DNA of 19,267 nt from assembly GCA_903929895.1 (NCBI GenBank), contig CAIYWM010000350.1, forward strand, positions 1-19,267, in the 5' to 3' direction. The notes beneath the pieces were generated by a model, which did no database searches, was not told the DNA's origin, and saw only the letters and a program-made list of their open reading frames with translations. This DNA comes from an uncultured Alphaproteobacteria bacterium (GTDB lineage: Bacteria > Pseudomonadota > Alphaproteobacteria > Reyranellales > Reyranellaceae). The position numbers and the translations under genes were made by a program. Position 1 is the stretch's first letter. Every line of letters begins with the position of its first letter. This document shows, one piece after another, positions 14,191 to 19,267 of this stretch.

Positions 14191-14829
14191 ATGACCGATC
14201 TGCTTGCCGATGTTTCACGTGAAACACGCCGTCAGTTGGAAGTTCTGGTGGAGACACTGGAACGGTGGCAGAAGGCCATCAATCTGGTTGGCAGGACGAC
14301 TTTGGACGGTGCCTGGAAGCGGCACATCCTCGACTCAGCCCAAGTCGTTCCTCTCATACCAGCTGAGGCGAAAACGCTGGCCGATCTGGGAAGCGGTGGC
14401 GGATTCCCGGGGCTTGTCATCGCCGCGATGCGACCGGATCTCGAAGTTACCCTGATCGAATCCGATGCCCGGAAAGCCGCGTTTCTGGGCGAAGCCGGTC
14501 GGAAGATGGGGCTGGCCCGTCAGCCAAAGCTCGTGATCAAGCGGATCGAGGCGGCGCCGCCTGCCAATGCCGAGGTGGTGACCGCCAGGGCGCTTGCGCC
14601 GCTGAGCCAGTTGCTGGAATGGTCCGACCGACACAGGATGAATACCGCTATTTGTCTTTTCCACAAGGGGAAGGACTGGCAGGCGGAGGTGGACGAGGCC
14701 AAGAAGAAGTGGGACTTTTCCCCGGAAGCATTTGCGAGCGTAACCGATCGTGACGCCGTCCTCCTCAGAATCGGCCCCTACACCGCCGCAGATCTTCGCG
14801 ATCGCCAACCAGAAGGGCGGCGTCGGTAA
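14191..14829 (+). CDS. rsmG: 16S rRNA (guanine-527-N7)-methyltransferase RsmG (GidB)
   Basis: RsmG methylates N7 of G527 in 16S rRNA using S-adenosylmethionine. The 212-residue product has the WQKAINLVGRTT segment (26-37), HILDSAQVV, the SAM-binding LADLGSGGGFPGLVIA at 63-78, the LIESDARKAAFL motif, and VVTARALAPLSQLL typical of the family. I chose the ATG at 14191 because AGGCGG (14179-14184) is six bases upstream; an ATG at 14167 would add eight residues and overlap mnmG. A second parS lies in codons 7-12. The last 80 bases overlap the parA reading frame in another phase, so the C-terminal tail after LLRIGPY is unusual and partly dictated by parA. Confidence 0.94.
   Translation: MTDLLADVSRETRRQLEVLVETLERWQKAINLVGRTTLDGAWKRHILDSAQVVPLIPAEAKTLADLGSGGGFPGLVIAAMRPDLEVTLIESDARKAAFLGEAGRKMGLARQPKLVIKRIEAAPPANAEVVTARALAPLSQLLEWSDRHRMNTAICLFHKGKDWQAEVDEAKKKWDFSPEAFASVTDRDAVLLRIGPYTAADLRDRQPEGRRR
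14211..14226. promoter_or_regulatory. parS centromere site at the start of rsmG
   Basis: A second exact TGTTTCACGTGAAACA, 491 bp from the first. Here it is read in a different phase, as part of D7 and then V8-S-R-E-T12 of RsmG. It is about 525 bp upstream of parA, so ParB loading here covers the promoter-proximal part of the par genes. Confidence 0.93.
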
Positions 14830-15598
14830 GACCACGACGGCGATCAACCTCGCCACAGCCCTGGCGGCCGTCGGCGAGAAGGTCCTTTTGATAGACCTTG
14901 ATCCGCAGGGAAATGCCTCCACGGGTCTAGGGGTGGCGAGAAATGAGCGCTCACCCGGTTCCTATGAGTTCCTGTTGGGCCTGAACCCGCTGGATGCCTC
15001 CGTTCGCGCCACCCAGATCCCCGGCCTGGACGTGATGCCGGCGGCGGGCCAGCTCGCCGGGGCCGAAATCGAACTGATTGACTTGGAACGACGCGAGCAC
15101 CGGTTGGCCGAGGCTCTGGCCGCGCCGGGCAACGATGCCCGGCAACGCTGGACGATCGTCCTGATCGACTGTCCGCCCTCGCTCGGCCTCGTCACCCTGA
15201 ACGCCCTGGTCGCCGTCGACGCCGTCCTGGTTCCGCTGCAGGCGGAGTTCCTGGCGCTCGAAGGCATCGGGGCACTCGGCAACACGATCGACCGGGTCCG
15301 GAAGAGACTCAATCCAAGGTTGCATATTTTCGGGGTCGTCCTGACCATGGTGGACCGCCGCATGACGCTCAGCCACCAGGTCGTGGCCGACGTGCGCGCG
15401 CATTACGGCGAGCTGGTCTTCGGAACGACCATCCCGCGCAACGTCCGCATCGCCGAGGCGCCCTCCCACGGCATGCCCGTGCTGATCTACGACAATGCCT
15501 GCGCCGGGTCGCAGGCCTACATCCTGCTGGCGAGCGAATTCATCCGCCGCCGGCGCCTAGCCGCAGAACAGGCGATTTCCCATGAGCCAGCCCCCTAA
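14750..15598 (+). CDS. parA: Chromosome partitioning ATPase ParA (Soj)
   Basis: ParA binds DNA non-specifically as an ATP dimer and pulls ParB-parS complexes. The 282-residue product has the deviant Walker A KGGVGKTTT at 22-30 with signature Lys 22 and catalytic-site Lys 27, LLIDLDPQGNAS (46-57) with the D49/D51 pair, and IVLIDCPPSLGLVTLNAL as the Walker B region. Conserved VPLQAEFLALEG and VVLTMVDRRMTLS segments follow. The GTG at 14750 is the only start that retains the Walker A region, and it lies 80 bases inside rsmG. The 3' end overlaps parB by 17 bases. The two genes form the usual par operon. Confidence 0.95.
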   Translation: MTPSSSESAPTPPQIFAIANQKGGVGKTTTAINLATALAAVGEKVLLIDLDPQGNASTGLGVARNERSPGSYEFLLGLNPLDASVRATQIPGLDVMPAAGQLAGAEIELIDLERREHRLAEALAAPGNDARQRWTIVLIDCPPSLGLVTLNALVAVDAVLVPLQAEFLALEGIGALGNTIDRVRKRLNPRLHIFGVVLTMVDRRMTLSHQVVADVRAHYGELVFGTTIPRNVRIAEAPSHGMPVLIYDNACAGSQAYILLASEFIRRRRLAAEQAISHEPAP

Positions 15599-16565
15599 AC
15601 CACGCGGCCTCGGCCGCGGACTGTCCGCCTTGCTGGGTGACGACGAAGTCGCCTCGGCCGTGACACCCGCCGCGCCCGTTGCGGCAGCGCCGTCCCCGCC
15701 GGCCTCTGCGCCAGCCGGGCCGACCGAGGCCGAGCCGGCGCGCGCCTCTTCCGGCAAGTTGCCGCCGCTCACCCTGCCGATCGGCCAGCTGAAGCCCGGC
15801 AAGATGCAGCCGCGCACCAGCTTCGAGGGCATCGAGATGCTGGTGGAGTCGGTCCGGGAATACGGCCTCCTGCAACCGATACTTGTGCGTCCGCTGCGCG
15901 ACTCGGCCGACAGCTACGAGATCATCGCCGGCGAACGGCGCTGGCGGGCGGCGCAGAAGGCCCAGCTCCATGACGTGCCGGTCGTCATCCGCACGATCGA
16001 CGACAGGGACGCGCTGCAGATCGGCCTGGTCGAGAACCTGCAGCGTTCCGACCTGACCGCGATCGACGAGGCGCAGGGCTACAAGCGGCTGGTCGAAGAG
16101 TACAGCCACACCCAGGAGGACCTGGCGCGCATGATGGGCCGTAGCCGGCCGCACATCGCCAACACGTTGCGCCTGCTCGACCTTCCGCCGCCGGTTCAGG
16201 AAATGGTGCGGGACGGCGCACTTTCCGCCGGCCAGGCGCGTACACTGATCGGTGTACCTGACCCCCTGGCGATGGCGCAGCGGGCCATCGCCGAGAAGCT
16301 GACCGTGCGCGATCTCGAGCGTCTCGCCGGCGAGACCAAGACGAAAGCCAAGCCCGGCAGCGCCGGCAAGACCAGGGCCGGCGGTGCCGCCGGTGGCGCG
16401 GCCAAGAGTGCCGACACGAAGGCGCTGGAAAGGCGCCTCGAGGAGGCGCTCGGTCTCAAGGTCGATCTCACATTGCGCGGCCTCGGCGAGCAGAGCGTGC
16501 TGACCCTGGAAATCCGCGACTTCGATCAGCTCGACACGGTCGTCGACAAACTCACGCGGCGTTAG
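15582..16565 (+). CDS. parB: Chromosome partitioning protein ParB (Spo0J)
   Basis: ParB binds parS and spreads as a CTP-fuelled DNA clamp. The 327-residue product begins PRGLGRGLSALLGDD, the ParA-contacting N-terminal motif. An Ala/Pro-rich linker (about 24-58) leads to the CTPase domain with GERRWRAA at 117-124 and ENLQRSDLTAIDEA at 151-164. The helix-turn-helix is near 176-199 (HTQEDLARMMGRSRPHIANT). After a Lys/Gly/Ala-rich linker (about 252-276) comes the C-terminal dimerisation domain. The ATG at 15582 overlaps parA. No terminator is visible in the 58 bp before rutB, so read-through into the rut genes is possible. Confidence 0.95.
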   Translation: MSQPPKPRGLGRGLSALLGDDEVASAVTPAAPVAAAPSPPASAPAGPTEAEPARASSGKLPPLTLPIGQLKPGKMQPRTSFEGIEMLVESVREYGLLQPILVRPLRDSADSYEIIAGERRWRAAQKAQLHDVPVVIRTIDDRDALQIGLVENLQRSDLTAIDEAQGYKRLVEEYSHTQEDLARMMGRSRPHIANTLRLLDLPPPVQEMVRDGALSAGQARTLIGVPDPLAMAQRAIAEKLTVRDLERLAGETKTKAKPGSAGKTRAGGAAGGAAKSADTKALERRLEEALGLKVDLTLRGLGEQSVLTLEIRDFDQLDTVVDKLTRR

Positions 16566-16623: not shown

Positions 16624-17394
16624 ATGGAAACCGGTCCAAAGCCCGTCAGCTACTTCTCGCCCGACGATCCCGCCGCGCGCCGGCTCGAGGCGCGACCCGA
16701 GCCGATGCTGATCAAGCCATCGGAAACCGCGCTGATCATCGTCGACATGCAGAACGCCTATGCCTCGCCCGGCGGCTATCTCGATCTCGCGGGATTCGAC
16801 ATCTCGGGCGCCGCGCCCGCGATCGAAAAGATCCGCGAGGCCGCGGCGGCGGCGCGTGCCGCCGGCATTCCCGTGATCTATTTCCAGAACGGCTGGGATC
16901 CCGACTATGTCGAGGCCGGCGGCCCGGGCTCGCCCAACTGGCACAAGTCGAACGCCATGAAGACGATGCGTGCGCGCCCCGAACTGCAGGGCAAGCTCCT
17001 GGCCAAGGGCGGCTGGGACTACGAGCTCGTGGACGCATTGCCGCCGCAGAAGGGCGACATCGTCATTTCCAAGCCGCGCTATAGCGCCTTCTACAACACC
17101 AACCTCGACAGTGTCCTGCGCGCCCGCGGCATCCGCTCGCTGGTCTTCACTGGCGTCGCCACCAACGTCTGCGTGGAGTCGACTCTGCGCGACGGCTTCT
17201 TCCTCGAATATTTCGGCATCGTCCTGCACGACGCCACCCACCATGCCGGGCCCGACTACATCCAGAAGGCGTCGCTGTTCAACATCGAGAGCTTCTTCGG
17301 CTGGGTGTCGTCGGTCGAGGCGTTCCGCAATGCCCTGCAGGCCAATGCCCATCCTGGCCTCAACACGGCCCTCAACACGGAAGGACGAGACTGA
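16624..17394 (+). CDS. rutB: Ureidoacrylate amidohydrolase RutB
   Basis: RutB, an isochorismatase-fold hydrolase, cleaves (Z)-3-ureidoacrylate, the ring-opened product of uracil, releasing carbamate or ammonia and 3-aminoacrylate. The 256-residue product matches E. coli RutB over nearly its full length, as far as I can recall that sequence: [58 protein letters not shown]. The triad is D41, K150 and C183, each shifted by the same 17 positions from E. coli D24, K133 and C166, so the N-terminus carries about 17 extra residues. GGAAGG four bases before the ATG supports this start. The stop overlaps the rutC start (TGATG). Confidence 0.95.
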
Positions 17395-17780
17395 TGCCCA
17401 TGAAGCCCGTGATCCCGCCCGGCACCGGCAAGACGCTGGCGCCCTATTCGCCCGGCGTGGTGGCCGACGGCATCGTCTACGTCTCCGGCACCCTGCCGCT
17501 CGATGCCGACACCAACGTGGTGCATGTTGGCGATCCGACCGCGCAGACGCATCATGTGCTGAAGACCATCCAGTCGGTGATCGAAGCCGCCGGCGGCACC
17601 ATGGCCGACGTCACCTTCAATTCGATCTTCCTCACCGACTGGGCGCACTACGCCGCCATCAACGCCGTCTATGCGCAGTATTTTCCGGGCGACAAGCCCG
17701 CGCGCTACTGCATCCAGTGCGGCCTGGTGAAGAAGGACGCGCTGATCGAGATCGCGACCGTCGCGCATATCGGCAAGTGA
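17394..17780 (+). CDS. rutC: RutC, 3-aminoacrylate deaminase (RidA family)
   Basis: RutC belongs to the RidA/YjgF family of enamine/imine deaminases and acts after RutB in uracil breakdown. The 128-residue product is full length, with [35 protein letters not shown] and [20 protein letters not shown], close to E. coli RutC including the Arg of the PAR motif that binds the substrate carboxylate. The start overlaps rutB by one base. Its last codons (IGK and stop) lie in the first copy of a 14-bp tandem repeat whose second copy supplies the rutD start. Confidence 0.95.
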
Positions 17781-17796
17781 TCATCGGCAAGTGATC
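17769..17796. repeat. 14-bp tandem duplication at the rutC/rutD junction
   Basis: ATCGGCAAGTGATC occurs twice head to tail, at 17769-17782 and 17783-17796. The first copy contains the rutC TGA stop and the second contains the GTG start used for rutD. Without the duplication the rutC stop and rutD GTG would overlap (AAGTGATC). It looks like a recent slippage or misalignment event. Confidence 0.9.
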
Positions 17797-18573
17797 TGCG
17801 ACGTTCACCCAAGCGAACGGCCCGGGGGAGCGACGGTTCTGCTGTCGGCCGGCCTCGGCGGCGCGGCCGGCTACTGGACGCCGCAGCTCGCCGCCCTCAC
17901 CGCCCGCTATCGCGTCATCACCTACGATCAGAGCGGCACCGGCCGGGCGCGCGCGACGCGGCTTCCCGCGGGCTACGCCATCTCGGATATGGCCGACGAG
18001 GTCCTCGCGATCCTCGATGCGACGTCGACCAAGAGCTGCCACTTCGTCGGTCACGCGCTGGGCGGCCTCGCGGGCGTCGACCTGGCGCTGCGCCATCCGG
18101 ACCGCGTGCGGTCCCTCACCATCGTCAACGGCTGGGCGACGGCCGATGCCCATACGCGGCGCTGCTTCGAGATTCGCGTCGCATTGCTGAAGGGCGCCGG
18201 TCCCGAAGCCTACGTCCGAGCCCAGCCGATCTTCCTCTATCCCGCAACCTGGCTGGCGGCGAATGCGGAACGCATGGCGGCGGAGGACGCCCATGCGCTC
18301 TCCGGGTTCCAGGGCAGCGACAACCTGCTGCGCCGCATCGAGGCCCTGCTGCGCTTCGACGCCACAGCGCAGCTCGACGCATTGAAACTGCCGGTTCTGC
18401 TGTCGGCCGCCCGCGACGACGTGCTGGTGTCGTGCAGCCAGTCGGAGGCGCTGGCGGCGCGACTGCCTAACGCCCTTCTCGACGTGGCACCCTTCGGTGG
18501 GCACGGGCTCAACGTCACCGAGCCCGCGGCCTTCAATGCGTTGTTGCTGGGCTTTCTCGACCGTCAGGCCTGA
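17791..18573 (+). CDS. rutD: RutD, alpha/beta-hydrolase-fold aminoacrylate hydrolase
   Basis: RutD accelerates conversion of aminoacrylate to malonic semialdehyde in the Rut pathway. The 260-residue product resembles E. coli RutD: LLSAGLGGAAGYWTPQLAAL, YDQSGTGRA, FVGHALGGLAG, NGWATADAHTRRCFEIR, QPIFLYPATWLAANAERM, FQGSDNLLRRIEAL. The alpha/beta hydrolase elbow reads GHALG at 87-91, so the usual Ser nucleophile is Ala 89, as in E. coli RutD. The terminal GGHGLNVTEP keeps the conserved His. The GTG at 17791 is the only start near the family N-terminus; it lies ten bases after rutC in the second copy of a tandem repeat, and no good Shine-Dalgarno sequence is visible. Confidence 0.92.
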   Translation: MICDVHPSERPGGATVLLSAGLGGAAGYWTPQLAALTARYRVITYDQSGTGRARATRLPAGYAISDMADEVLAILDATSTKSCHFVGHALGGLAGVDLALRHPDRVRSLTIVNGWATADAHTRRCFEIRVALLKGAGPEAYVRAQPIFLYPATWLAANAERMAAEDAHALSGFQGSDNLLRRIEALLRFDATAQLDALKLPVLLSAARDDVLVSCSQSEALAARLPNALLDVAPFGGHGLNVTEPAAFNALLLGFLDRQA

Positions 18574-18590
18574 TCGCTTCAGAAGCCTGA
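18564..18590. terminator. Hairpin spanning both convergent stop codons (rutD / lipoprotein)
   Basis: TCAGGC (18564-18569) pairs with GCCTGA (18585-18590). Inside it CTGA pairs with TCAG, leaving a 5-base loop and a 2-base bulge. The stem includes the rutD TGA and the TGA of the minus-strand lipoprotein, only five bases apart. It may mark 3' ends on both strands, but no T-run flanks it. Confidence 0.4.
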
Positions 18591-19049
18591 CGCGACCGCG
18601 CGGTTGCCGCCCGTCACCCCGGCGCGGCCCTTGTCGGCCGACACTTCCGTTGCCGTGCATCTCGGATTGAGCGGCAGGCCTGGCCAGACGTCGACTTCGA
18701 GGAAGCGCGTTTCCCCCGGTGCGATATCGACGGTGGCCGCCTGGGCAGGCGTCTGGGTGAGCGGCGCGTAGCTGGGCGCGTTGCAGGTGATGACGTGCTG
18801 CCCGGGCGCGACCTCGACGCGGATCCAGGTCCTGCTGGCCAAGGAGCCGATCGGCTGTTGTTTGTCCGCCAGCGAGAACACCGCCTCAGACCCGAGAACC
18901 GAACTGCGATACAGGTACAGGGCGGCCTGACCCGGCGCTGGCGGGTCGAACCGCTTCCCCTCCCTGTCCGCTGCGGGCCCTGCCAGGGGCACGGTTGCGC
19001 AGGCGCTCAACAGGAACGACGTCGCTACCCAGAAATACAAAGCGCGCAC
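18579..19049 (-). CDS. Small lipoprotein, DUF2846-like
   Basis: This 156-residue protein has a short signal peptide ending in the lipobox LLSAC, so Cys 17 would be lipidated and the protein anchored to a membrane facing the periplasm. The mature part starts with a flexible ATVPLAGPAADREG stretch. A beta-rich domain follows, with AALYLYRSSVLGSEAVFSLA, IGSLASRTWIRVEVAPGQHV and APGETRFLEVDVWPG, the pattern of DUF2846-type proteins. Their function is not known to me. I chose GTG 19049 because GGAGAGGGA lies just upstream and the signal peptide begins there; the open frame upstream to 19229 runs antisense to the ferritin gene and is not coding. It is divergent from the encapsulated-ferritin gene, with 97 bp between them. 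Confidence 0.8.
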   Translation of the reverse strand: MRALYFWVATSFLLSACATVPLAGPAADREGKRFDPPAPGQAALYLYRSSVLGSEAVFSLADKQQPIGSLASRTWIRVEVAPGQHVITCNAPSYAPLTQTPAQAATVDIAPGETRFLEVDVWPGLPLNPRCTATEVSADKGRAGVTGGNRAVASGF

Positions 19050-19050
19050 G

Positions 19051-19059
19051 TCCCTCTCC
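19051..19059 (-). promoter_or_regulatory. Ribosome-binding site fixing the lipoprotein GTG start
   Basis: GGAGAGGGA on the minus strand is a strong Shine-Dalgarno sequence directly upstream of GTG 19049. It is the main reason for not extending the gene into the open frame beyond. Confidence 0.7.
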
Positions 19060-19146
19060 ACGGCAATTGCAATGACAGAGGCGCAACGGGACCGGCGCGA
19101 CGTCGTTCCCTGCGGAACCTGGCGCGCGATCGAACGTTGCTGCGCC

Positions 19147-19267
19147 ATGGCTAGTGAAACGCTGCACGAAGACCCGGCCAAGCTTGGTCCCGAGGTCATG
19201 GATCGCCATCGCGCGATCGCTTCCCTCATGGAAGAGCTGGAGGCCGTGGACTGGTATGACCAGCGCG
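19147..19267 (+). CDS. Encapsulated ferritin (EncFtn), N-terminal part, cut by window end
   Basis: The 40 visible residues include RHRAIASLMEELEAVDWYDQ, which matches from memory the first helix of the Rhodospirillum rubrum encapsulated ferritin (RHRAIVSVMEELEAVDWYDQ). EncFtn forms a ring of dimers, oxidises Fe(II) at sites shared between subunits, and is packaged inside an encapsulin nanocompartment that stores the iron. E29, E30, E32, W36 and Y37 here correspond to E31, E32, E34, W38 and Y39 there, including the ferroxidase Glu. The second helix with the other iron ligands, and any C-terminal encapsulin-targeting peptide, are outside the window. ATG 19147 fits the family N-terminus; an in-frame ATG at 19072 would add 25 unlikely residues. 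No clear Shine-Dalgarno sequence is visible. Confidence 0.8.
   Translation, partial: MASETLHEDPAKLGPEVMDRHRAIASLMEELEAVDWYDQR

Follow-up and report, generated by a model that had tools for sequence, protein, structure and literature searches.

A contig-edge encapsulated ferritin gene from a Reyranella species and the EcfG-type promoter motif upstream of it

In Rhodospirillum rubrum, the gene for the encapsulated ferritin (EncFtn) is presumably adjoined by the gene for the encapsulin shell, as a sequence-only reading of the present DNA had stated. The R. rubrum protein (Rru_A0973; 5da5, 33bf) belongs to the same two-helix family as the gene described here. Glu32, Glu62, His65 and Tyr39 are placed at its ferroxidase centre, and Glu31/Glu34 are described as a second metal site (PMC5012862). 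The EncFtn of the H. ochraceum encapsulin system (7oe2) is the same type of cargo and also carries a targeting peptide (E 6.7e-36 against the EncFtn of L066, a near relative of our locus), but it is more distant in sequence. The EncFtn core is likewise shared by the s-FLP form, which comes without a targeting peptide and is represented by N. europaea NE0167 (3k6c; PMC11202242, partial text). On the regulatory side, EcfG/PhyR regulons of R. etli and S. melonis offer the nearest comparison. The motif of R. etli EcfG1 is GGAAC-N16-CGTT (PMC3892343, partial text), and GCAAC forms are also listed among the tabulated EcfG-dependent genes of S. melonis (PMC6599016).

The DNA analysed here, called the window, is one whole contig of 19,267 nucleotides (G000:C350:1-19267) from an uncultured bacterium of the Reyranellaceae. 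The assembly to which it belongs, G000, comprises 5.26 Mb in 1031 contigs and is 84.5% complete and 6.9% contaminated. At its right edge the window very probably holds the beginning of an FLP-TP-type EncFtn gene of a Reyranella species, the leading gene of an operon of two genes, cargo and shell, under an EcfG-type promoter. The likeness to the R. rubrum system covers the first-helix ligands in the window itself and, in relative L066, the equivalents of Glu62 and His65, the linker, the targeting peptide GSLGIGSL[KR] and the adjoining shell gene. The features that may set the Reyranella locus apart are its place between parAB and holA, its EcfG-type promoter and the missing Shine-Dalgarno sequence of its clade.

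The EncFtn gene at the contig edge and its neighbours

The features of the right part of the window are as follows.

14750..15598, forward strand: parA, placed by tblastn synteny and named from its sequence; a syntenic anchor
15582..16565, forward strand: parB, placed and named in the same way; the anchor upstream of the EncFtn-shell pair
16624..17394, forward strand: rutB-like gene (TIGR03614, 419 bits)
17394..17780, forward strand: rutC-like gene (TIGR03610, 225 bits)
17791..18573, forward strand: rutD-like gene (TIGR03611, 347 bits; also synteny)
18579..19049, reverse strand: putative small lipoprotein of 156 aa, with a GTG start after GGAGAGG and a lipobox-like LLSAC, both read by eye
19085..19109, reverse strand: candidate EcfG-type promoter facing the lipoprotein gene, an exact GGAAC-N16-CGTT, divergent from the EncFtn promoter
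19114..19138, forward strand: candidate EcfG-type promoter of EncFtn, an exact GGAAC-N16-CGTT whose CGTT ends 8 nt before the ATG
19147..19267, forward strand: 5' part of the EncFtn gene, 40 codons and 1 base (PF22277, EncFtn chains in the PDB, 39/40 identity to L027 and L033)

The reading frame is open from the ATG at 19147 through 19266, and codon 41 begins at 19267. The 40 residues match the Pfam family PF22277 (EncFtn-like) with 44.7 bits at a cut-off of 27 (E 1.2e-11). With the NCBIfam model TIGR04535 (encapsulin-associated ferritin-like protein) they reach 37.9 bits over 34 of the 114 model positions, which falls under a cut-off of 125 that is a full-length value. They also align with EncFtn chains of known structure, from R. 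rubrum (5da5 and 5l8g, E about 7e-10), H. ochraceum (7oe2) and N. europaea (3k6c). In the alignment to 5l8g/5da5, E29, E30, E32, W36 and Y37 of the window correspond to Glu31, Glu32, Glu34, Trp38 and Tyr39 of R. rubrum, with a numbering offset of 2. All the metal ligands of the first helix (Glu31, Glu32, Glu34 and Tyr39) are therefore represented, by E29, E30, E32 and Y37. The equivalents of Glu62 and His65 in the second helix, as well as the targeting peptide, would fall past the contig end and are seen in relatives instead. Because 39 of the 40 residues are identical in the proteins of two congeners (L027 and L033), the match is far beyond chance, and the sequence comparison confirms the 40 residues at 19147-19266 as a member of the EncFtn family. 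The sequence-only reading had recognised the first-helix signature, with its iron-binding Glu residues and W/Y pair, and was right in this; the PF22277 score and the alignment to the R. rubrum chains bear it out.

A fragment of 40 residues could in principle belong to a paralogous ferritin-like protein unconnected to encapsulins, since this first helix is also common to s-FLPs that have no targeting peptide (3k6c, L148-L152). Such a paralogue is extremely improbable: the 39/40 identity is to copies with a targeting peptide and an adjoining shell gene, against 24/40 for L005 and 25/40 for L004, both shell-less, and the gene order is the same as in relatives. The gene and its interpretation represent a further member of the known EncFtn-encapsulin system, cut by the assembly.

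The start at 19147 fits the relatives, whose proteins begin with MASE, MASD or MSSE at the same point. An in-frame ATG at 19072 was considered as the true start and rejected; relatives do not keep the upstream opening, which in L066 and L069 is just 4 codons long.

Between parB and the lipoprotein gene, rutB, rutC and rutD are grouped at 16624-18573, with no space for rutA. This rutBCD insertion between parB and EncFtn is found in only 4 of the 80 fetched loci (L066, L069, L071 and L075).

The divergent lipoprotein had been proposed as either an accessory or a mere neighbour. It is not a conserved accessory or a needed part of the EncFtn system, because only 10 of the 80 fetched loci have it; its match to PF11008 (DUF2846) is weak (22.8 bits, below the cut-off of 34.3). 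The other option holds, with an addition: the lipoprotein gene may be a co-regulated neighbour and a stress gene of its own, because it faces its own GGAAC-N16-CGTT in the window and a motif of this type in 7 of the 10 loci carrying it (six N16, one N17). In the remaining three (L072, L074 and L075) no such motif faces the gene.

The shell gene in relatives and in the window's genome

The two near syntenic relatives, L066 and L069, show how the locus continues. Up to the contig end, L066 matches the window's DNA in two stretches with 93.8% and 93.1% identity; the value for L069 is 92.6%. In both, the order is parA, parB, rutB-rutC-rutD, the lipoprotein gene (reverse), EncFtn and the shell gene, followed by holA and leuS on the opposite strand (these two names were read from the proteins, not from family searches). 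The EncFtn proteins are full-length, with 127 aa in L066 and 131 aa in L069, and end in a linker followed by DGSLGIGSLR. That of L066 scores 146 bits with TIGR04535 (cut-off 125), and its second helix contains the ExxH pair E60 and H63, equivalent to Glu62 and His65 of R. rubrum. The L066 shell protein matches the family-1 encapsulin model NF041155 of NCBIfam with 319 bits (cut-off 100), and its best solved match is 9ry4. The second ExxH helix, the C-terminal targeting peptide and the following HK97-fold encapsulin gene that the sequence-only reading expected past the contig end are thus all present in syntenic relatives, and an EncFtn family model, the kind of comparison it also proposed, recognises the window's own residues.

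The pair is widespread in the genus. The following counts are over loci that are related to each other and not independent. The targeting-peptide pattern [SG]LG[IV]GSL[RK] occurs in 41 of the 44 loci of the window's lineage; the misses are L102 (DLGIGSLR), L113 (deleted) and L135 (contig cut). A shell match stands beside EncFtn in 77 of the 80 fetched loci, the exceptions being L135 and L142, cut by a contig end, and L113, which has none. Among the 60 same-genus genomes besides G000, EncFtn is found in 45, the shell in 46 and both in 44 (counted from tables). In 43 of these 44 the two genes lie side by side on one contig with 108-150 bases between the matched stretches, and in G050 they are on two contigs. 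The other 15 of the 60 have no EncFtn match; two of these, G027 and G036, do have a shell gene.

In G000 itself, EncFtn is found in the genome search solely at the contig edge, and a profile search with Linocin_M18 (PF04454) gives no shell match. When DNA from EncFtn onward is compared with G000, 3.2 kb of L066 and 8.4 kb of L069, only the first 122 bases match. The holA gene is not found in G000 either, and leuS gives only partial matches at 30-35% identity. Across the genus the holA probe finds its target in 58 of 61 genomes (the misses are G000, G004 and G033), including every one of the 41 with a completeness of 90% or more and a contamination of 5% or less. The leuS gene is essential. A loss of the shell gene in G000 is accordingly not concluded: with holA and leuS missing as well, the absence is read as an assembly gap, and the stretch of about 8 kb after EncFtn with shell, holA and leuS was most likely not assembled. 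Absence of any encapsulin gene from the genome had been named as a finding that would count against the encapsulin reading; formally this is the situation in G000, and it carries little weight given the equal absence of holA and leuS.

A different reading of the same gap is that the window's EncFtn has neither shell nor targeting peptide and is free in the cytosol, which is the s-FLP state of L113 (genome G029). It can draw on the missing PF04454 match in G000 and on the occurrence of this state in a single lineage locus among 44, but it is quite improbable: the pair is complete in both L066 and L069, with a long linker and targeting peptide that set the window's nearest relatives apart from s-FLPs, and G000 lacks the entire following 8 kb, leuS and holA included. 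We infer that the copy in G000 continues as in these relatives. Because 15 of the 60 relatives have no EncFtn and G029 has neither shell nor targeting peptide, a shell gene after EncFtn in this strain is likely but not certain. The encapsulin interpretation is supported through the Reyranella relatives. The more specific expectation of a shell gene just beyond 19267 agrees with the adjacency seen in relatives; in G000 no such gene is assembled.

L113 (4639-4959, equal to G029:C939 in a genome that is 98% complete) provides a natural experiment on EncFtn without a shell. One deletion of about 890-920 bases removed the linker, the targeting peptide and the shell: bases 1-293 of its EncFtn gene align with relatives, and the sequence resumes at the shell end. 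The frame stays open, leaving a 106-aa EncFtn core next to holA, and no shell (PF04454) match is found anywhere in G029. Shell and targeting peptide were thus lost together and the ferroxidase core was kept.

Other loci show further states. In G045 (L194), parB is followed by holA, and neither EncFtn nor shell was found between them. L190 (5898-5981, in G020) is an encapsulin locus in decay, in which 28 residues of the shell protein persist between parB and holA. EncFtn genes that stand alone, encode some 95-115 aa and lack a targeting peptide occur at L148 (5135-5410), L149 (5524-5799), L150, L151 and L152, and separate genes of the s-FLP form are L004 and L005 (genomes G090 and G039). The stand-alone genomes G077, G089, G090 and G100 have no shell match; G039 has one stand-alone EncFtn (C56) besides a normal EncFtn-shell pair (C15). 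In G016, L155 (5605-7471) carries a second family-1 encapsulin. Immediately before it lies a protein of 355 aa that contains GFVDGTENP, which we take to be DyP-peroxidase-like, and has a GSLGIGSLK tail; this protein is probably a peroxidase cargo.

The EcfG-type motif and the start of the mRNA

GGAAC and CGTT at a fixed spacing were first noticed across the EncFtn upstream regions of 20 relatives, and the lineage set used for counting was fixed after that. It comprises 44 loci (L064-L106 without L103, plus L113 and L135), with a cut that follows the shell identities. GGAAC-N16/17-CGTT lies within 250 bases upstream of EncFtn in 38 of them, and the remaining six (L083, L084, L086, L093, L094 and L100) have GCAAC with N16 or N17. 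Elsewhere in the same loci the GGAAC form occurs 7 times in 1,155,188 positions on both strands. Against the 38 loci observed, 2000 draws of random 250-base pieces from these loci give an expectation of 0.056 loci and a maximum of 2; the G[GC]AAC form averages 0.12 loci in such pieces, with a maximum of 3. Outside the lineage, the GGAAC form is found in 1 of 35 loci (L110, N17) and the GCAAC form in none. These 35 include L103 and L142, whose placement is unclear; with both counted inside, the figures become 38/46 for the exact form and 44/46 including GCAAC. L111 was left out of the count, its contig beginning inside the gene. The motif, GCAAC form included, is absent upstream of the shell-less L148-L152 and of the shell-bearing class-level relative L154. 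In L072, L073 and L074 a further GGAAC-N17-CGTT stands at -69.

Conservation of the spacer is low: when the loci are divided by the distance of the motif from the ATG, 3 of 16 spacer columns reach 1.0-1.2 bits in the near class and the rest are lower, and none exceeds 0.8 in the far class. The recurrence of the motif is therefore more than a by-product of conserved DNA around it. The invariant GGAAC and CGTT columns themselves carry no evidence, the sequences having been chosen by that pattern.

The near class consists of 18 loci and the window; here 8 or 9 bases separate the end of CGTT from the ATG. Between -20 and -4 (17 bases), not one of these 19 has GGAG, GAGG, AGGA, AGGAG or GGAGG, and the window contains no Shine-Dalgarno sequence between CGTT and ATG. 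In the far class (26 loci, motif 35-78 bases from the ATG) a Shine-Dalgarno-like word is present in 22, the exceptions being L090, L092, L098 and L113. With ECF sigma factors, transcription starts a few bases past the -10 box. The near form of the promoter therefore predicts a leaderless mRNA, and the EncFtn mRNA is probably leaderless in the window's clade. A 41-row tree of EncFtn and shell requires 3 changes of the near state; well-supported branches force them, with L082 and L070 placed apart from a near clade of 16 rows. The state may have arisen by three gains, or by one gain with two losses. The tree leaves out L090, L093, L103 and L119 (shell start not found) as well as L113 and L135, has L110 as its sole outside row and contains a half-filled row for L070.

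PhyR and the general stress response

The promoter motif suggests that the EncFtn-shell pair is regulated by the general stress response. G000 encodes a PhyR on C492 (NF006623, 299 bits at a cut-off of 240), with matches to PF22233, PF22029 and the receiver domain and with solved PhyR chains among its structure matches. An ECF sigma gene lies beside phyR in G000 (best solved match 5uxx), and in G028 there are two. NepR was not identified: two small ORFs near phyR have no Pfam match. GGAAC-N16-CGTT is found upstream of phyR on the same strand in each of the three genomes looked at, 316 bases from the predicted start in G000, 316 in G028 and 573 in G015.

The genus survey does not add to this. 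PF22233 gives a match in 54 of the 61 genus genomes, 49 of them over the cut-off, with a model of only 50 positions that may miss some. Those without a match over the cut-off are G007, G009, G010, G017, G018, G021, G027, G040, G043, G045, G053 and G055; G027 is 97% complete and most others are incomplete. EncFtn or shell is present in 8 of these 12, against 39 of the 48 other same-genus genomes (counted from tables), and the carriers among the 12 include G021 (93% complete) and G055 (99%). In the survey the presence of EncFtn thus does not track that of PhyR, and this counts against the stress-response reading.

The motif could also be real but used by another ECF sigma factor, responding to iron or envelope stress, with no part for the general stress response. 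This is rather unlikely, though clearly less so than the alternatives above. GGAAC-like -35 boxes are found with other ECF sigma factors, such as the GGAACTT of E. coli RpoE (PMC8103513, partial text), and several EncFtn carriers have no PhyR match over the cut-off. However, the -10 CGTT with the N16 spacer equals the published R. etli EcfG1 motif exactly (PMC3892343), and the same motif recurs at the three phyR loci. Iron-responsive boxes (Irr-like TTTAGAA and TTCTAAA, IRO-like) were not matched in 18900-19160, a weak test with three simple patterns.

An EcfG-type promoter of an EncFtn-encapsulin operon seems unreported in the literature searched, which left subscription journals mostly outside. 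Within that scope, encapsulin together with EcfG, and EcfG with linocin, were not found; the word encapsulin is absent from the S. melonis EcfG paper (PMC6599016); and two papers among the hits for encapsulin with 'general stress response' (PMC8795404 and PMC7762939, judged on partial text) were off topic.

With use of the motif by EcfG as the preferred reading, the following course of events is predicted. The operon would be transcribed from the EcfG-type promoter just upstream, as a leaderless mRNA in this clade, and the compartment would be produced while the PhyR-EcfG stress response is active. The EncFtn protein is predicted to form a two-helix, metal-assembled decamer and, from its family, to oxidise Fe(II). 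Its C-terminal targeting peptide would bring it into the family-1 encapsulin shell encoded by the next gene, and the iron would be mineralised inside the shell.

As a gene, the find is ordinary, one more EncFtn-encapsulin pair. The wider proposal, which we consider reasonably probable from the sequence comparisons, is that the iron-storing encapsulin of Reyranella belongs, through PhyR-EcfG, to the alphaproteobacterial general stress response, with a promoter recurring in all the lineage loci examined and an mRNA that would be leaderless in the window's clade and probably two other lineages as well. In that case, cultured Reyranella without phyR or ecfG should make no shells under stress, whatever the iron supply. 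The recurrent EcfG-type promoter offers a concrete, testable answer to the question of when the compartment is made, and if that answer is true, encapsulin iron storage would be tied to general stress rather than to the iron supply.
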